Shown piece after piece: positions 3,207 to 10,752 of a stretch of 10,842 nt of DNA. Source of the DNA: Desulfocapsa sp. (lineage in GTDB: Bacteria > Desulfobacterota > Desulfobulbia > Desulfobulbales > Desulfocapsaceae); assembly GCA_029934915.1 (NCBI GenBank), contig JAOZLI010000062.1:1-10842 (forward strand), read 5' to 3'. The notes beneath the pieces are model-generated. The model had not been told where the DNA came from. It worked only from the letters and a program-made list of their open reading frames with translations, and did no database searches. The position numbers and the translations under genes are program-made. Within the stretch, counting starts at the first letter, position 1, and each line of letters opens with the position of its first letter.

Positions 3207-3235
3207 GGTATACTGCTTGGTTTGAAGTTTGTAAA
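3207..3235 (-). promoter_or_regulatory. Promoter of the amidohydrolase gene
   Basis: Read on the minus strand, TTTACA (3235-3230) is a five-of-six match to the -35 hexamer and TATACC (3212-3207) a four-of-six match to the -10, with a 17-base spacer. Initiation would fall near 3200, giving a leader of about 35 bases before the ATG at 3165. The ribosome site AAGGA lies at 3175-3171. Confidence 0.5.
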
Positions 3236-3247
3236 AGTAATTATTCC

Positions 3248-3262
3248 GAGTCCAATGGACTC
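3248..3262. repeat. Perfect 6-bp inverted repeat in divergent intergenic region
   Basis: GAGTCC (3248-3253), AAT, GGACTC (3257-3262) is a perfect 15-base interrupted palindrome. It lies just upstream (on the minus strand) of the amidohydrolase -35 box and about 95 bases before ychF. It could be an operator for either gene or a small hairpin. There is no T-tract, so it is not a standard terminator. Confidence 0.45.
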
Positions 3263-3293
3263 TGCATAAACACTTTTTCTACGAATACATCAT

Positions 3294-3328
3294 AAAGTGA
3301 AAATTGGGAAGTCGCCAATCACTTTTTT
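3294..3328 (+). promoter_or_regulatory. Predicted hairpin with T-tract in the ychF leader
   Basis: AAAGTG (3294-3299) pairs with CACTTT (3320-3325), and ATTGG (3303-3307) pairs with CCAAT (3315-3319). This gives 11 base pairs with a 3-base AAA bulge and a 7-base loop, ending in TTTTTT (3323-3328). It lies 28 bases before the ychF start. The shape resembles a weak intrinsic terminator or attenuator, but the upper stem is AT-rich and the T-tract is partly inside the stem. No clear ychF promoter was identified, so whether it is transcribed is unknown. Confidence 0.35.
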
Positions 3329-3355
3329 CAGACAGAAATATTTTGGAGTAAATAT

Positions 3356-4453
3356 ATGGGTTTTTGTTGTGGTATTGTCGGGCTTCCAAATGTTGGGAAA
3401 TCCACTATTTTTAATGCATTGACAGCAGCGGGAATTGACGCTGAAAATTATCCCTTTTGCACCATTGAGCCAAATGTGGGGATTGTTCCTGTTCCTGATA
3501 AACGTCTCGATGTGTTGGCTGAAATGGCCAAGACTAAAAAGAAGGTCGCAACCCAAATGGAATTTGTGGATATTGCGGGTCTTGTGAAAGGTGCCAGTCA
3601 GGGAGAGGGTCTTGGGAATCAGTTCCTGGGGCATATTCGCCAGGTTGATGCCCTTGTGCATGTGGTTCGCTGTTTTGAGGATGAAAATGTTGTCCATGTG
3701 GATGGGAGTATTGATCCTGCCCGTGATCGGGACGTGATCACCATGGAGCTTATCCTGGCAGATCTTGATACCGTCGAAAAACGATTGAAAAAAGCGCAGA
3801 GTCTTGCCAAATCTGGTGATAAAACTTTGAAGGCTCAGGCCATTTTTCTTGAAAAACTGCGTGATCATCTCGATACTGGTCAAACGGCCAGAACTCTTGA
3901 AATCGATGGTGATATGGAAGAAGGTCTCATGAAAGAGATGACTTTGCTCACCGACAAACCGGTTCTCTATGTTGCCAATGTTCATGAGGATGATGTTCCC
4001 GATGGCAATGCGTTTGTGCGCGTACTGGAAAAACTTGCCGAGGAAGATGGTGATGGCGTCGTAGTTATCGCTGGTTCCATTGAGCAGGAGTTAAGTCAGC
4101 TCGATGCCGAGGAACAACGGGAATTCCTGGCCGATATGGGCATGGAAGAGCCAGGGCTTAATCGGCTTATTGCCGCGGGTTACGAACTTCTTGGCCTGAT
4201 TACCTATTTTACTGTGGGTGAAAAAGAGACGCGAGCCTGGACAATCACTAAAGGGACAAAGGGACCGGGGGCTGCTGGAAAGATTCATTCGGATTTTGAG
4301 CGTGGTTTTATCCGGGCAGAGACCATTGCCTACGATGATTTTGTGGCATGTGACGGTGAAAATGGAGCCAAAGATAAAGGCTTGATGCGTTCGGAAGGCA
4401 AGGAGTATGTCGTGGTCGATGGAGATTGTCTGAATTTTCGTTTTAATGTGTGA
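3356..4453 (+). CDS. ychF: YchF/Obg-like ATPase, ribosome-associated
   Basis: This 365-residue protein is the universally conserved Obg-family P-loop NTPase YchF (OLA1 family), a cytosolic, ribosome-associated enzyme linked to translation and stress responses. The N-terminus [16 protein letters not shown] carries the G1/Walker A loop (GLPNVGKS, 9-16). Switch II is DIAG (72-75). The G4 position reads NVHE (208-211) instead of NKxD, the signature of the ATP preference of this family. A coiled-coil segment lies at about 130-200 and a TGS domain at about 280-365, with the [12 protein letters not shown] motif typical of the C-terminus. Length is standard (about 363). The start is supported by GGAG seven bases upstream. 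It heads a same-strand run of eight genes and is separated from holB by only 12 bases. Confidence 0.97.
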
Positions 4454-4465
4454 TTTGTTAGAATC

Positions 4466-5434
4466 ATGAGTGAGACGCAGCAGCTATACGGACAAAGCCA
4501 GGCAAAAAATCTTCTAACCAGAAGTATTGCTGCAGATCGTCTGGCTCATGCCTATCTCTTTCGCGGGCCTGATGGGGTAGGTAAGCAACTCTTTGCTAAG
4601 AGGCTTGCCGCGATTATCAATTGCAAACAGAGCGAGGGCTTTGTTGCCTGCGGAACCTGTTCTTCCTGTAAAAAGCTTGCTGCGGGTTCGCATCCGGATT
4701 TTGTTCTTGTGTCTCCGCAAAAAGGAGCCATCAAGATCGATCAGGTTCGTGCATTGATAAAATCACTCTCTTTTGCCCCTTATGAAGCAAAAACACGGGT
4801 GGTAGTTTTAGAAGATATACATACCATGCGTGCGGAGGCTGCTAATAGTCTTTTAAAAACTCTGGAAGAACCACCTGAAAATAATATTCTGATCTTAACG
4901 GCAGATACGGCCGGAAACGTTTTGCAGACAATTATTTCCAGGTGCCAGTCCATTCCTTTTTATTCGTTAACGACGGAAGAAACGGTGTCTATCCTGATGG
5001 CGCAGGAGGATGAGCTTGATCTTGATACCGCCCATCTTCTGGCACGTCTTAGTGAAGGAAGCCCGGGAAAGGGCCTGCTTTTTTATAAGAAAGATCTTAT
5101 CCCTTTATGGCAGGAACTTACTTCTCTTCTTGTTGAGCCTGAGAGTAACAGTGACAAAAATAGTGGAAAAGTACTGCTTATGGCGGAGCGAATAGCTGCC
5201 TTAAAGGAAGATTTGCCATATCTTTTAGGACTCATTCGTCTCTGGTTGCGTGATTGTCTTTTTGTGTTGAATGGTCATGATCAGGGTACGGAAAGTCTAA
5301 ATAGACGGAAAGAGTGGAATTCACCACAATATTTTGCTAAGTTGCAAGCTATAGATCGTGCAGAGAAGGAGCTTTCGAGAAATTGTAATCGCACCTTGGT
5401 TTGTGAGGTATTGCTCTTTCAACTAACGGCCTGA
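4466..5434 (+). CDS. holB: DNA polymerase III delta' subunit
   Basis: This 322-residue AAA+ family protein is the delta' subunit of the clamp loader that places the beta clamp on primed DNA. It shows the RuvB-like start, then a Walker A-like loop GPDGVGKQ (34-41) whose final Ser/Thr is Gln, suggesting weak or no ATP binding as known for delta'. The zinc module is complete: Cys53, Cys62, Cys65, Cys68. The sensor/arginine-finger SRC motif is at 158-160, preceded by the NSLLKTLEEPP stretch (127-137) shared with gamma/tau subunits. The C-terminal part (about 210-322) is variable, as usual. The ATG at 4466 has no strong Shine-Dalgarno sequence, so translation may be coupled to ychF, whose stop lies 12 bases upstream. 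A role as DnaX itself is excluded by length and by the poor Walker A. Confidence 0.93.
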   Translation: MSETQQLYGQSQAKNLLTRSIAADRLAHAYLFRGPDGVGKQLFAKRLAAIINCKQSEGFVACGTCSSCKKLAAGSHPDFVLVSPQKGAIKIDQVRALIKSLSFAPYEAKTRVVVLEDIHTMRAEAANSLLKTLEEPPENNILILTADTAGNVLQTIISRCQSIPFYSLTTEETVSILMAQEDELDLDTAHLLARLSEGSPGKGLLFYKKDLIPLWQELTSLLVEPESNSDKNSGKVLLMAERIAALKEDLPYLLGLIRLWLRDCLFVLNGHDQGTESLNRRKEWNSPQYFAKLQAIDRAEKELSRNCNRTLVCEVLLFQLTA

Positions 5435-5551: not shown

Positions 5552-6427
5552 ATGGAAGAAAATAAAAAAGACAATCTCCAGTATTTTTACCGCATTCGCT
5601 TTCGGGCAGATGGACAGGAGTTTACCGTGTCATCACCCCTGGACGACCTGAAACGTCATGACGTGGTTATGGTGCGTGGAGAATATGGGCTGGAACCTGC
5701 CGCTATTACTGGTCCTGCGCCGGCCTGTCGGGATTCTGGGTTTGAGCGGAAAGCAACCTACGAATCTTCTCGTCGCGCAGCCCCTGAAGAGTGTACTCGA
5801 TATGAAAATATTCCCATGGAGGAAGCTGCCGCCTTTGAGAACTGTAAGAACTTAATTGCCAAACACACATTGCAGATGCGGCTTGTTCGGGTGGAACGCT
5901 TTTTTAATGGCAGTAAAATGATTTTTTATTTTACTGCAGATAAGAGGGTGGACTTTAGAGGTCTTGTGAAAGACCTTGTTCAGGAATTCCGTACCCGGGT
6001 AGAGATGCGGCAGGTTGGTGTGCGGCATGAAACAAAGATGCTTGGTGGTCTTGGAACCTGTGGTCGTGAGCTCTGTTGTTCCAATCATATGAAGAAATTT
6101 GATTCTGTTTCTATTAAAATGGCCAAAGAACAGGATTTACCGTTAAACCCTTCGAAAATTTCAGGGGTTTGTAATCGTTTGCTTTGTTGCCTGACCTATG
6201 AGTTCGAGACATATAAACGGGAACGCAAGGGAATGCCAAGACCAGGGAAGATCTTGAAACTGGATGAACAGTTGTACAAGGTAAGAAGACAAAATCCGCT
6301 GCAGCAAACACTTCAGGTTATTAGTGAGGCAGGTGAGATGCACGTTCTTGAGGCCAGCGAATGGCAACATGCGGAAATAGTACGACCGGAAAAGAAAAAG
6401 AAAAAAGAAAAGAAACAGGAATCATGA
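5552..6427 (+). CDS. ricT: PSP1-domain regulatory factor, RicT/YaaT family
   Basis: This 291-residue protein belongs to the PSP1/RicT family. In Bacillus subtilis RicT works with RicA and RicF in an Fe-S-bearing complex that assists RNase Y-dependent mRNA maturation; the partner set in this organism is unknown. The PSP1 core runs from about residue 80 to 230. The family's clustered cysteines are all visible: Cys170, Cys175/176 (GTCGRELCC), Cys207 and Cys212/213 (GVCNRLLCC), separated by the conserved VSIKMAKEQDLPLNPSKISG-type block. The N-terminal 60 residues form a separate beta-rich part, and the C-terminus is a charged Lys/Glu tail (KKKKKEKK, 281-288). The ATG at 5552 lacks a Shine-Dalgarno sequence and lies just after the repeat element. 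The stop overlaps the metG start (ATGA, 6424-6427). Its place between holB and metG matches the Firmicute holB-yaaT neighbourhood. Confidence 0.92.
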   Translation: MEENKKDNLQYFYRIRFRADGQEFTVSSPLDDLKRHDVVMVRGEYGLEPAAITGPAPACRDSGFERKATYESSRRAAPEECTRYENIPMEEAAAFENCKNLIAKHTLQMRLVRVERFFNGSKMIFYFTADKRVDFRGLVKDLVQEFRTRVEMRQVGVRHETKMLGGLGTCGRELCCSNHMKKFDSVSIKMAKEQDLPLNPSKISGVCNRLLCCLTYEFETYKRERKGMPRPGKILKLDEQLYKVRRQNPLQQTLQVISEAGEMHVLEASEWQHAEIVRPEKKKKKEKKQES

Positions 6428-8364
6428 CAACTTATATAACGACCCCTATCTATTACGTAAATGCACAGCCACATTTGGGGCATGCCTATACGACAATTGT
6501 TGCCGATACTTACGCCAGGTTTCGACGTCTTGCCGGGGACTCTGTACGGTTTCAGACTGGAACGGACGAACATGGGGATAAAATAGCGGAAGCGGCTGAC
6601 AAAGAAGGGGTGAGCCCTAAGGCATACGTCGATCGTATCAGTGCAATGTTCAGTGATACCTGGCCTACGCTGGATATTGTACCGGATAATTTCATTCGAA
6701 CCACGGATGCCGATCATGTGGCAACGGTGCAGAACATTCTGCAGCAGGTATATGACAAGGGTGATATCTACTTTGATAAGTATACTGGTTTGTATTGCAC
6801 TGGATGCGAACGCTTTCTTACTGAAAAAGAGCTGGTGAATGGGAAATGTCCAGATCACCAGACGGTGCCGGATGAGATAACCGAACAGAATTATTTTTTC
6901 AGGATGTCCAAATATCAGCAGGATCTTATCGATCATATCAAGGGAAATCCTGATTTTATAACTCCTGAACGTTATCGAAACGAGGTACTCTCTTTTTTAA
7001 GTGAACCCCTGGAAGATCTTTGCATTTCAAGACCTACATCACGACTTACCTGGGGCATTCCTCTTCCTTTTGATGATAAATTTGTTACCTATGTCTGGTT
7101 TGATGCACTGATTAACTATCTAACGGGTATTGGCTATCCTGATTCCGAACAGTTCAAGAGCTATTGGGATGTAGCGGAACACGTTATTGCAAAAGACATT
7201 CTTAAACCTCATGCCATTTACTGGCCCACCATGCTATTATCCATGGGATTGCCGCTCTATCAGAAGTTGCACGTACATGGCTATTGGAACGTTGATGAAA
7301 CGAAGATGTCCAAGAGCATTGGTAATGTGGTGCGTCCTGCTGAGCTTGTTGAAGAATATGGTGTGGATTGTGTGCGTTATTTTACCCTGCGGGAGATGTC
7401 CTTCGGGCTCGATTCCTCCTTTAGCGCTGATGCAATTGTAGCCAGGAAAAATTCTGATCTTGCCAATGATCTTGGGAATCTGTACAGTCGAAGTACAGCC
7501 ATGCTTATCAAATATACTGGTGGCGTTATTCCAGAACCGGTTGCAAGTGATGATGATACGGTCATGCGGGATCTGGCAAGGGACGTGGTTACAACCTACA
7601 CCGAGAAGATGGGTGATTTTCAATTTCATCGAGCCCTTGCAGCGGTATGGGAATTGATCAGTCTGGCTAATAAATATATTGTGACCAATGAACCCTGGGC
7701 GCTTGCCAAGGAACCTGAACGCGCAGGACGATTGCATACAGTGTTGTATAATCTGCATGAAACATTGCGTTTGCTGACGCTGCTCTTGCAACCTGTGATG
7801 CCGGGTACATGTAAGAAAATGGCGAAGGGACTGGGGATTGCGGAAGATTCTCCTCTGGTAACATCTCTTGATGCTGCAGGATGGGGTGGCTTGCAGGCAA
7901 AAACTGAGCTCACCAGAATTGATGCTTTGTTTCCTCGTATGGATACAAAGAAGAAGAAACAGCAGGCACCGCCTAAAGAGAAGACAAAGAAGAAACAGAA
8001 ACAAAAGGTCAAAAAGACTGAAAATATGGAAGGCTTAATTACCTTCGATCAGTTCCAGGATCTTGAGCTTCGAGTTGCAGAGATTGTGGCAGCAGAACCC
8101 ATCAAAAAATCAGACAGACTGTTGAAGCTGAGTGTTAAAGCGCCTGAAGAGCGGACGATTGTTGCTGGTATTGCAGAGTATTATAAACCTGAGGATGTCG
8201 TTGGGCTGCAGGTGTTAATTGTTGCTAATCTTAAGCCTGTAAAGCTTATGGGGATTGAGTCCCAGGGGATGGTTCTTGCTGCAAAAGTTGAGGAGGAGGG
8301 GGGCAGTCGTTTGGTGCTTTCTGCTGTTAGTGCTCCTGTTCCTGCTGGATCTAAGGTTGCGTAG
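6424..8364 (+). CDS. metG: Methionyl-tRNA synthetase with C-terminal tRNA-binding domain
   Basis: This 646-residue class I aminoacyl-tRNA synthetase charges tRNA-Met with methionine in the cytosol. The HIGH motif is HLGH (17-20). A single CxxC...CxxH zinc knuckle occupies 125-145 (Cys125, Cys128, Cys142, His145), and KMSKS is at 294-298. The helical anticodon-binding domain covers about 340-505. A Lys-rich linker (about 509-532) leads to an EMAP/Arc1p-type tRNA-binding domain (about 537-646), which in relatives promotes dimerisation and tRNA binding. The chosen start, ATG 6424, gives the family N-terminus TTYITTPIYYVNAQPHLGHA and has AGGA three bases upstream. An in-frame ATG at 6361 would add 21 low-complexity residues read out of frame through the 3' end of ricT and is rejected. 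It is translationally coupled to ricT by the 4-base overlap. Confidence 0.97.
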   Translation: MTTYITTPIYYVNAQPHLGHAYTTIVADTYARFRRLAGDSVRFQTGTDEHGDKIAEAADKEGVSPKAYVDRISAMFSDTWPTLDIVPDNFIRTTDADHVATVQNILQQVYDKGDIYFDKYTGLYCTGCERFLTEKELVNGKCPDHQTVPDEITEQNYFFRMSKYQQDLIDHIKGNPDFITPERYRNEVLSFLSEPLEDLCISRPTSRLTWGIPLPFDDKFVTYVWFDALINYLTGIGYPDSEQFKSYWDVAEHVIAKDILKPHAIYWPTMLLSMGLPLYQKLHVHGYWNVDETKMSKSIGNVVRPAELVEEYGVDCVRYFTLREMSFGLDSSFSADAIVARKNSDLANDLGNLYSRSTAMLIKYTGGVIPEPVASDDDTVMRDLARDVVTTYTEKMGDFQFHRALAAVWELISLANKYIVTNEPWALAKEPERAGRLHTVLYNLHETLRLLTLLLQPVMPGTCKKMAKGLGIAEDSPLVTSLDAAGWGGLQAKTELTRIDALFPRMDTKKKKQQAPPKEKTKKKQKQKVKKTENMEGLITFDQFQDLELRVAEIVAAEPIKKSDRLLKLSVKAPEERTIVAGIAEYYKPEDVVGLQVLIVANLKPVKLMGIESQGMVLAAKVEEEGGSRLVLSAVSAPVPAGSKVA

Positions 8365-8434: not shown

Positions 8435-8728
8435 ATGTTTGTGGTAAATAATTTTATGATGGCTATTGCTCAGTTGATCGATTTTTTGCTCACCGCATAT
8501 ATGTGGATTATTATTGGCCGGGCGGTGATTTCCTGGGTTAATGCTGATCCTCACAATCCTATTGTTCGCTTTCTCTATGAGGCCACTGAGCCACCCTTGA
8601 GAAAAATTAGAAATGTGTTGCCCATGAGCATGGGCGGGATCGATTTTTCTCCCATGATTCTAATCATGGCTATTATGTTTCTGCAGAGTTTTCTTGTGCC
8701 AACGTTGAAACAGTTGGCAATGGGATAA
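8435..8728 (+). CDS. yggT: YggT/YlmG family small membrane protein
   Basis: This 97-residue protein of the YggT (YlmG) family has two membrane segments, about residues 8-33 and 71-92. The conserved loop between them holds RAVISWVNADPHNP (29-42) and the TEPPLRKIRNVLP motif (51-63), followed by GGIDFSP (67-73) at the start of the second segment. Family members are inner-membrane proteins linked to envelope or division organisation and, in plastids, to nucleoid distribution; the molecular activity is not established. The start ATG has GGAG seven bases upstream. It follows metG by 70 bases and precedes divIVA by 30, the same pairing as ylmG-divIVA in Gram-positive division clusters, which supports a related envelope role. 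Confidence 0.93.
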   Translation: MFVVNNFMMAIAQLIDFLLTAYMWIIIGRAVISWVNADPHNPIVRFLYEATEPPLRKIRNVLPMSMGGIDFSPMILIMAIMFLQSFLVPTLKQLAMG

Positions 8729-8758: not shown

Positions 8759-9718
8759 ATGTCCATAACTCCACAGCTTATAAAAGATCAGGAATTTGAA
8801 GTAAAATTCAGAGGCTTTGATCCCATTGAAGTAAAAGATTATCTGGAAACCATTGCTGACAAATTCTTCGAGTTGCAGGAATTGTGCAAGGAGCAGGAGG
8901 AAGAACTCGATACCCTGCGTGATGCGAAGGATTCTTCCGAAGAATACAATACTTCTCTCGAAACAGATATGGAGTTTACCAGGAAAATATCTGAAGAACT
9001 GAAAGATGGCTGTGCTCAAAAAGAAGAAAAGGTAAACGAGCTTACAGCAGAAGTGGAAGAGTTGCAGCTGCGTATTGCTGATATGGAGGAAGATGGGAAG
9101 GAGCACGAGGAAGAACTCAGCACTATTGAGGCTGGCCGGGAAGAGCTGGAAGAGGCTCTAAAGGAAGCCATGTTAGAGGGTGAACGTCTTCGAAATAAAC
9201 TTGAGCTTCAGCTGGAACAGATAAATGATCTGAAAAAAGAAGAAGTTGATTTTAAAGCAACTTTGGCCTCGGCTCAGCGGTTTGCGGAGGAGATGAGAGA
9301 GGACAGTCTGGTCGAAGCCGAAGAGCTGGTCGAAGGGGCAAAGAATGAAATTGCCAAAATCCGGGATGATGCTCAGGCTGAACTGGATCGTTTGCCCGTG
9401 GAGATTTCAACTCTTGAAAAGAAAAAATACAGAGTTCGGGAAGAGCTGAAGGCCATTCTTGAAAATTATCTGGAGACAATAGATGTGTTTGCTCCCGCTG
9501 CAGAGAGCGAAGCTGTAGAAGATACGGAACTTTTTCAAAAAATTGAAATCAACGAAGATGGATCGCTAAATCCTGAAGACCTGAAAAAAATGGATGAAAA
9601 GGCTTTGGACTCCTTGCTTGGCGGTGAAAGCGAAGGGGAGACAGGTGATGATACATTTAATCTGAATGATATGTTTAGCCTGGGTGCGGAGGACGAAGAG
9701 AAAAAGGAATCTTCGTGA
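8759..9718 (+). CDS. divIVA: DivIVA-domain coiled-coil protein
   Basis: This 319-residue cytoplasmic protein has a DivIVA-type N-terminal membrane-binding domain and a long coiled coil. Residues 4-40 match the family (TPQLI..QEF..KFRGFDPIEVKDYL). Phe17 and Arg18 fall at the same positions as the membrane-inserting Phe17 and Arg18 of Bacillus subtilis DivIVA. Heptad-rich, highly charged sequence covers about 35-235, including the second family block around 175-215 (AQRFAEEM...EAEELVEGAKNEI). A non-coiled acidic tail of about 85 residues follows, longer than in classical DivIVA. Such proteins recognise curved or polar membrane and recruit partners. The role here (division, polarity or cell shape) is inferred. 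GAGGA lies five bases before the ATG. The DUF167 gene begins one base after its stop. Confidence 0.9.
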   Translation: MSITPQLIKDQEFEVKFRGFDPIEVKDYLETIADKFFELQELCKEQEEELDTLRDAKDSSEEYNTSLETDMEFTRKISEELKDGCAQKEEKVNELTAEVEELQLRIADMEEDGKEHEEELSTIEAGREELEEALKEAMLEGERLRNKLELQLEQINDLKKEEVDFKATLASAQRFAEEMREDSLVEAEELVEGAKNEIAKIRDDAQAELDRLPVEISTLEKKKYRVREELKAILENYLETIDVFAPAAESEAVEDTELFQKIEINEDGSLNPEDLKKMDEKALDSLLGGESEGETGDDTFNLNDMFSLGAEDEEKKESS

Positions 9719-9719
9719 T

Positions 9720-10016
9720 ATGAGTTATTTGTCCACCTACAAGGGTGGTGGGGTTTTGTTGCGGTTATATGTGCAGCCTAAAGCCTCCAGGAACGAATTT
9801 GTCGGAGTGCACGGTGATGCAATAAAGCTTGCGATTACAGCACCACCCGTTGATGGAAAAGCGAATAAAGCGGTTGTAAAGTTTTTGGCCGCGTTTTTTA
9901 AGATGAAGAAAAAGGATTTCAGCATAAAGCATGGTTTACAATCAAGGACAAAGTCAGTTCTCATCGAAGGGGTCGAGTTGCAGGATATGAGGCGACGAAT
10001 GGAAATACTTCTTTAA
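9720..10016 (+). CDS. yggU: DUF167/YggU family protein
   Basis: This 98-residue protein belongs to the DUF167 (YggU/UPF0235) family, small alpha/beta proteins of unknown molecular function. The signature elements are present in order: VQPKASRNEFVG (18-29), KLAITAPPVDGKAN (36-49), then K(A)VVKFLA and the later strand with SRTKSVLIEG. Length is normal (about 95-100). The ATG at 9720 was chosen because it begins one base after the divIVA stop and an AGGA lies 11 bases upstream inside divIVA. A longer in-frame reading from 9666 would merely be the shifted frame of the divIVA 3' end. It sits with yggT, as is common for these two families, suggesting coupled expression with the envelope/division genes. 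Confidence 0.93.
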   Translation: MSYLSTYKGGGVLLRLYVQPKASRNEFVGVHGDAIKLAITAPPVDGKANKAVVKFLAAFFKMKKKDFSIKHGLQSRTKSVLIEGVELQDMRRRMEILL

Positions 10017-10044: not shown

Positions 10045-10752
10045 ATGAAAAAATATGTAGTTGGCAATTGGAAGTGTAATAAAGATAAAAAGGATGCGCA
10101 AAAGTGGTTTGCTGAATTTTCTAACTGTTACACACCTGTTGATGGACTTGAAGTAATCATTGCCCCTTCCTTTATTTGTCTTTGCTCTCTTTCTGAATAT
10201 GTTAAGACCCTGGAAATACAAAATCTTTCTTTAGCCGCCCAGGATGTGTCTCCTTTCCCCAAGGGATCCTATACTGGCGCCGTTGCCGCTGATATGGTCA
10301 GGGACATGGTTGACTATGTCATTATCGGCCATTCAGAACGTCGGCGCTATTTTCACGAAACCTCCCAGGAAACAGCCAACAAAATGGCAGAAACAGTTGA
10401 TGCGGGACTCAAGCCCATAGTCTGTATCGACCAGCCCTATGCCATGTCACAACTCACCGCTCTTCATGATATCGATTGTGAAGAAATGCTCCTGGCTTAC
10501 GGGCCAGTGGATGCTATGACAGCAAGAATACCAGAGTTGCCAAAGCGTGTAGCAGAAGCTACGCAGTTTATCAGTCAGGTTCATCCTAAACGGCCGGTTC
10601 TTTATGGCGGCTCTCTGATGGTTGAAAATGTGGATGATTATATTAGCCTGCCTCAGCTGTCAGGTATCTTTGTCGGCCAAACCAGTCTTGATGCCAGTGC
10701 TTTTGCAATCCTGTGTAATAAGGTAGGAGAATCGCTGATAAGTAAATCTTGA
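10045..10752 (+). CDS. Triosephosphate isomerase homologue lacking the catalytic glutamate
   Basis: This 235-residue TIM-barrel protein is a clear triosephosphate isomerase homologue, about 15 residues shorter than usual. It retains Asn8 and Lys10 (GNWKCN), His96 and Glu98 (IIGHSERR), the YFHET..ETANKM..A..AGLKPIVC run (102-127), YGGS (187-190) and a VGQTSLDA phosphate-loop region (210-217). It departs where catalysis happens. The loop-6 region that should read YEPVWAIGTG reads YGPVDAMTAR (152-161), so the general-base Glu is Gly153 (codon GGG, 10501-10503). VCxGE reads VCIDQ (126-130), and VGG reads VGQ. The segment around helix 5 is shortened, as in archaeal TIMs. It is therefore probably not a working isomerase, and tpiA is withheld as a symbol. 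The start is backed by GGGAG six bases upstream. It closes the operon, 28 bases after the DUF167 gene. Confidence 0.85.
   Translation: MKKYVVGNWKCNKDKKDAQKWFAEFSNCYTPVDGLEVIIAPSFICLCSLSEYVKTLEIQNLSLAAQDVSPFPKGSYTGAVAADMVRDMVDYVIIGHSERRRYFHETSQETANKMAETVDAGLKPIVCIDQPYAMSQLTALHDIDCEEMLLAYGPVDAMTARIPELPKRVAEATQFISQVHPKRPVLYGGSLMVENVDDYISLPQLSGIFVGQTSLDASAFAILCNKVGESLISKS

Follow-up and report, generated by a model that had tools for sequence, protein, structure and literature searches.

The 10,842-nucleotide stretch of Desulfocapsa sp. DNA analysed here (contig JAOZLI010000062.1, assembly GCA_029934915.1; hereafter the window) encodes a paralogue of triosephosphate isomerase (TIM) that lacks the catalytic glutamate, and this Glu-less form makes up a conserved clade on which selection acts. 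TIM serves as the standard textbook case of catalytic perfection, and Glu165 is regarded as its essential base. The conservation pattern across the clade points to strict selection on the half of the pocket that handles phosphate and oxyanion, with the half devoted to proton removal and closure gone. We consider it fairly probable that the protein is a neofunctionalised TIM paralogue that binds a phosphorylated ligand and either carries out a different reaction, which we favour, or acts as a metabolite sensor. The gene in question is:

10045..10752, forward strand: Glu-less TIM-family paralogue of 235 amino acids, assigned from its open reading frame (ORF), Pfam TIM score (165.1 bits) and AlphaFold2 model

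The ORF begins with ATG and contains zero internal stops, and residues 4–226 of its product match PF00121 (TIM) at 165.1 bits against a curated cut-off of 20.1. AlphaFold2 confidently predicts a TIM beta/alpha barrel (predicted local distance difference test 94.4, predicted template modelling score 0.92); by profile score and by this predicted fold the window protein is a member of the PF00121 family, in line with a preliminary description of the DNA, made from the sequence alone, that had called it a TIM paralogue with a well-kept fold. The protein scores 93.7 bits against the NCBIfam TIM equivalog TIGR00419, whose cut-off is 130.6, and lies under the cut-off for all nine NCBIfam models listed. 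Three marks of a TIM enzyme are missing, namely a TIGR00419 score above cut-off, Glu165, and the loop 6 lid (W-AIGTG) together with the loop 8 Gly-Gly; the equivalents of TIM Asn10, Lys12, His95 and Glu97 are present as Asn8, Lys10, His96 and Glu98.

We gathered paralogues by overall similarity to three paralogue queries, and not by residue 153, with the protein searches listing the best 120 matches each, and divided them into sets A, B and C by the query or locus group that brought each sequence in. Removing identical sequences and those of at most 180 amino acids left 457 (433 paralogue and 24 canonical), and 20 more canonical TIMs were added, so that the residue comparison covers 433 distinct paralogues and 44 canonical TIMs; TIM numbering of lid residues was assigned by hand. 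The relevant positions in the window are as follows:

10072..10074, forward strand: Lys10 (Lys12 of yeast TIM), kept in 430/433 paralogues
10240..10278, forward strand: loop 3 segment Q66-G78 (QDVSPFPKGSYTG), with Gln66, Gly74 and Gly78 kept in 433/433
10330..10338, forward strand: His96-Ser97-Glu98 (TIM His95-Ser96-Glu97); His in 433/433, Glu in 417/433, Asp in 16/433
10423..10452, forward strand: C127-I-D129-Q-P-Y-A-M-S-Q136, at the canonical CVGE stretch
10501..10503, forward strand: Gly153, codon GGG, at the position of catalytic Glu165
10504..10536, forward strand: loop 6 lid PVDAMTARIPE (canonical PVWAIGTGKTA), with the Trp, Thr, Gly and Ala lid positions lost
10603..10614, forward strand: Y187-G-G-S190, loop 7, on the phosphate side, kept
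10675..10680, forward strand: Gly211-Gln212, loop 8, where the second phosphate-side Gly is lost (VGG to VGQ)

Glutamate occupies the base position in 44/44 canonical TIMs and in 0/433 paralogues. Position 153 is instead Gly in 274 paralogues, Thr in 143, Arg in 6, Cys in 6, Ser in 3 and Ala in 1. Set A is largely Gly (149/160, with 5 Cys, 3 Ser and 3 Thr), as is set B (125/134, with 6 Arg, 1 Ala, 1 Cys and 1 Thr), set C is Thr throughout (134/134), and five rows set aside as unsure also carry Thr (5/5). The motif YEPVWAIGTG reads YGPVDAMTAR in the window protein and CVGE reads C127-I-D129-Q130; the residues that the preliminary description had reported as kept or replaced (Asn8, Lys10, His96, Glu98, Gly153, the VDAMTAR lid, CIDQ and VGQ) are all correct, numbering included. 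Across the clade, the losses extend to Trp168, Thr172, Gly173 and Ala176 of the lid, Glu129 and Gly233 (all in TIM numbering) and the Met behind Lys12.

The remaining pocket is retained with high fidelity. Twenty-six positions are conserved at 95% or more in both the paralogue and the canonical set, among them Asn8 (430/433 paralogues), Trp9, Lys10, Gln66, Gly74, Thr77, Gly78, His96, Glu98, Arg99, Cys127, Tyr152, Pro154, Tyr187, Gly188, Gly189, Asn195 and Gly211. The clade has also acquired residues of its own: window residue Asp129 is found in 412/433 paralogues, with Glu in 8 more, where canonical TIMs have Gly (44/44), and Gln136 (429 of the 433), Trp21 (432), Phe25 (431), Ser69 (432), Pro72 (432) and Glu116 (432) are likewise clade-specific, with six more positions gained or switched beyond these. 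In TIM, according to the review PMC12874384, Lys12 stabilises the phosphodianion and His95 the enediolate, Glu97 is the ion-pair partner of Lys12, a stabilising hydrogen bond joins Trp168 and Glu129 in the wild type, and the mere shortening of the base in E165D costs 1500-fold in kcat. The joint loss of both Trp168–Glu129 partners would be the expected look of a linked lid change.

In a tree of 94 chosen rows, a single branch (support 100/100) divides the 51 paralogues from the 43 canonical TIMs, the stem measuring 1.36 changes per column. The preliminary description had asked whether the Gly form is a conserved clade, and this holds for the absence of Glu, which marks a fully supported clade, but not for the replacing residue, which differs between sets A and B (predominantly Gly) and set C (Thr).

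We attach practically no probability to the window gene being a pseudogene or the product of a sequencing error. The GGG codon of Gly153 lies one base away from GAG and broken paralogue copies occur in two relatives (G180 and G184), but the first protein set, whose listed matches are 61–99% identical to the query, holds 119 Gly and 2 Ser among 121 sequences, and the linked surrounding changes, the open frame and the strong amino acid constraint all argue otherwise. Pairwise amino acid identities of paralogue/TpiA among five genomes of the genus are 84/86, 78/75, 72/76, 66/76, 77/78, 76/79, 69/76, 76/83, 66/78 and 66/81%, within 4 points of each other in five pairs and with the paralogue changing faster in the other five. 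Where computable, the ratio of nonsynonymous to synonymous substitution rates (dN/dS) is 0.036–0.062 for three paralogue pairs and 0.063–0.094 for eight tpiA pairs, the synonymous rate being saturated in 7/10 paralogue pairs. Amino acid change in the paralogue is strongly constrained, and we rejected decay and error on the recurring Glu-less state, the linked changes, the open frame and this constraint. The preliminary description's own case against both is borne out by the absence of Glu in 433/433 paralogues, the conserved clade and the presence of a canonical tpiA in the same genome.

That second gene, which the preliminary description had predicted to lie near pgk, is on contig C68 at 4520–5257, just downstream of pgk at 3227–4363. 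A PF00121 search of the source genome (606 contigs, 83% complete) returned two matches only, the window gene at 164 bits and this one at 315 bits; its product is a canonical TpiA that reads AYEPVWAIGTGK with YEPVWAIGTG intact, and the window protein is 32% identical to it (235 amino acids against 250 for the TpiA ORF). A canonical TIM is also present in 16/20 paralogue-bearing genomes tested, including all seven that consist of one to three contigs. The four without one (G056, G109, G159 and G185) were put into the sample since each had shown one match only; PGK is missing too in G056 and G109 and present in three others searched, so the pgk–tpiA region was probably left unassembled in these two rather than both genes truly lost. 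Paralogue and tpiA lie on separate contigs in the source genome; where the two share a contig, as in eight of the genomes tested, the distance between them is 0.12 Mb or more.

Using the window protein as query, we found matches at 1e-30 or better in 104/193 genomes of the order; some matches of this search are flagged with an internal stop. The 104 comprise 46/52 genomes of the window's own family, which has one fragment besides (G184), and 58/141 of other families. Weaker than 1e-30 come a partial copy (6.5e-26) and then matches starting at 1e-23, of which all 20 fetched are canonical. In the phylum-wide survey, 49/395 genomes had a match at 1e-25, 8 inside the order and 41 outside; the 22 of these 41 outside matches that were read, leaving 19 weaker ones, were all canonical with Glu, and in this phylum, the one surveyed by genome, the clade has so far been seen only in the window's order. 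A class-level search returned order members only and added no outgroup. Source names among the protein matches listed include Desulfocapsa, Desulfobulbus and Desulfurivibrionaceae. Some own-family genomes are in the process of losing the paralogue: the gene is split into two frames at locus L052 (G180, on one contig) and cut short at L053 (G184). In one further genome (G088, L075), a partial second copy with nearly identical motifs lies about 4.7 kb from the full paralogue.

We propose that the paralogue has kept the fold, the loop-3 core that in TIM reaches the partner subunit, and the part of the pocket that would hold the phosphate and the carbonyl or enediolate oxygens (Asn, Lys, His, the Glu97 position and the Tyr-Gly-Gly loop), but that the Glu which abstracts the proton, the substrate-covering lid and both partners of the open-lid Trp168–Glu129 contact have been exchanged. 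The more open pocket would then most likely bind a small, triose-like phosphorylated metabolite, and the protein would serve either in a different reaction or in sensing the metabolite, leaving glycolytic isomerisation to canonical TpiA. The near-complete invariance of the catalytic His and Lys (His96 in 433/433) makes us favour catalysis over pure sensing. The gene, the clade, its residue pattern, the predicted fold and the canonical tpiA are established here; ligand binding, a dimeric state, loss of ordinary TIM activity and changed chemistry are predictions. Several observations weigh against this proposal: Gly, Thr and Arg at one position point to no single common chemistry, and sets A, B and C may not share one function; window Asp129 could serve as base and preserve isomerase activity; the paralogue occurs in only part of the order (104/193 genomes) and is therefore not essential there; and 4/20 paralogue-bearing genomes are without a canonical tpiA. 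The preliminary interpretation, which spoke of a repurposed sugar-phosphate-binding, regulatory or altered-chemistry protein, is on the whole partly supported.

Should Asp129 act in this way, the protein would still be an isomerase of triose phosphate or a related sugar phosphate whose base has moved from Glu165 on strand 6 to Asp129 on strand 5. The novelty and near-invariance of this acidic residue speak for such a move, the constancy of His96 and Lys10 argues for retained oxyanion chemistry, and PDB entry 7r9b, the best solved sequence match, also lacks Glu at the base position and has Asp there; yet the paralogue has exchanged the lid under which the TIM transition state is shielded, and canonical TpiA is usually present too, leaving no evident need for a second isomerase, and we regard the moved base as unlikely. 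A new sugar-phosphate enzyme on the TIM scaffold, its acid-base carboxylate relocated from strand 6 to Asp129 on strand 5 and its lid given up, is a speculative option to which we grant a modest chance; if true, it would be a natural migration of a catalytic residue inside the archetypal 'perfect' enzyme, possibly shared with short TIMs of Patescibacteria.

TIM is a dimer, and another reading starts from loop 3. PMC12874384 names Thr75 and Gly76 of loop 3', contributed by the partner subunit, among the active-site residues of TIM. The loop-3 Gln, Gly and Thr-Gly residues are conserved in the paralogues and a canonical TpiA accompanies them in 16/20 genomes tested, as a regulatory subunit that forms a heterodimer with TpiA and modulates it might require; however, the residue after Thr-Gly is switched (Glu in 42/44 canonical TIMs; Ala or Ser in 404/433 and Glu in 12/433 paralogues), which together with the paralogue-specific Ser69 and Pro72 suggests a homodimer of its own, and the paralogue and tpiA are not co-located. 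We judge the heterodimer very unlikely and retain the neofunctionalised phosphorylated-ligand binder as the preferred reading.

The paralogues do not stand beside the order's own TpiA rows in the 94-row tree, but the fork joining them to other canonical rows is weak (83/88). In a second tree of 40 chosen rows that includes three PDB chains, 7r9b, a TIM of Ca. Roizmanbacteria and the one sequence of its kind in the tree, shares one side of a branch (100/98) with the paralogues; its own end branch is long (1.79). Among PDB entries it matches both sequence profiles best, ahead by about 15 bits, and resembles the window protein in its short chain (223 amino acids), AAQDVS segment, lost CVGE and replaced Trp168 (Glu in 7r9b), but differs in its acidic Asp at the base position and its AIGTG lid, which is kept; the two are 36.6% identical. 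By fold, 7r9b is not among the best 50 matches listed for the window model and ranks 23 for the set-B model. Kinship between the paralogues and 7r9b is tentative because of this long branch and the unremarkable fold rank, and because at least one canonical TIM outscores the window protein in pairwise comparison with 7r9b. As a lead only, its placement would tentatively favour descent of the clade from short TIMs, as against a duplicated tpiA of the order itself. Solved and named as a triosephosphate isomerase, 7r9b has Asp for the catalytic Glu and Glu for Trp168, and for this reason unusual base positions in TIMs may be wider in Patescibacteria.

We count the short TIM of Katanobacteria (WWE3; PDB 7r7m) among the closest known systems. 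The paralogue shares with canonical TpiA (PF00121, EC 5.3.1.1) the fold, Asn-Trp-Lys, His95, Glu97, Arg98, the YGG loop and the loop-3 core, and differs in lacking Glu165, Trp168, the GTG lid, CVGE and the second loop-8 Gly and in the new Asp129, Gln136, Trp21 and Glu116. L-erythrulose-1-phosphate isomerase (PDB 11ef, among the matches listed) has the TIM fold and is a sugar-phosphate isomerase with another substrate. TIM relatives of this kind typically keep the catalytic Glu. The literature searched, judged by titles and abstract openings, describes no Glu-less TIM clade. Many of the paralogues among the matches listed are named triosephosphate isomerase in databases and a few 'triose-phosphate isomerase family protein'. 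PMC3739170 lists two triosephosphate isomerase loci in D. sulfexigens, UWK_00786, which adjoins PGK UWK_00787, and UWK_01623, and counts both as TIM among glycolytic isozymes. From gene order and position, UWK_01623 is probably the Glu-less paralogue: in G041, probably D. sulfexigens, the paralogue maps to 1.82 Mb, pgk–tpiA to 0.91 Mb. The practical point concerns both the database naming and this isozyme count. A large natural clade of this type shows which pocket elements remain under selection in the absence of the usual base, and it could lead to a new ligand or reaction among bacteria that metabolise sulfur.

The paralogue follows a same-strand run of genes for YchF, DNA polymerase III delta' (HolB-like), PSP1, metG, yggT, divIVA and DUF167, the last four of which are:

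6361..8364, forward strand: methionyl-tRNA synthetase gene (metG), with a mechanical ORF start; a relative starts later, at MTTYITTPIYY
8435..8728, forward strand: YggT-family gene
8759..9718, forward strand: DivIVA-domain gene
9720..10016, forward strand: DUF167/YggU gene, ending 28 bases before the paralogue

Downstream, on the opposite strand, the eight own-family first-copy loci compared carry an ABC1-type kinase gene (one typed by Pfam), so the paralogue stands at or near the end of the gene run. Of the 62 loci examined, 34 have DUF167 upstream of the paralogue; these belong to the window's own family and to family f12, and none of the set-B loci or the five second copies of genus g2 is among them. 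The shared gene neighbourhood that the preliminary description had asked about therefore extends to these two families and not to the set-B loci or the second copies. The neighbours say little on paralogue function because the metG–yggT–(divIVA)–DUF167 context is absent from set-B loci and second copies, and we rejected a functional tie to DUF167, DivIVA or RNA genes on the grounds that this context occurs in two families only, with set-B copies elsewhere.

The second Glu-less copies of genus g2 (family f1; loci L037, L039, L041, L042 and L045) have a separate neighbourhood of their own, with alpha-amylase/CBM48 (branching-enzyme-like) genes in 4/5 loci, holin-like genes in 4/5, BON-domain genes in 3/5 and ice-binding-like genes near two of them (L037 and L039), one member per type having been checked by Pfam. 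This neighbourhood is too local, and a role read from it was rejected. At three set-C-like loci (L072, L073 and L082), a gene of the NAD-dependent epimerase type, assigned by Pfam at L072, precedes the paralogue; L073 also has a ThiF-family gene after the paralogue. Elsewhere in the window, positions 271–1829 encode a HipB/HipA-like pair (HTH_3; HipA_C and Couple_hipA) whose ORFs overlap by four bases.
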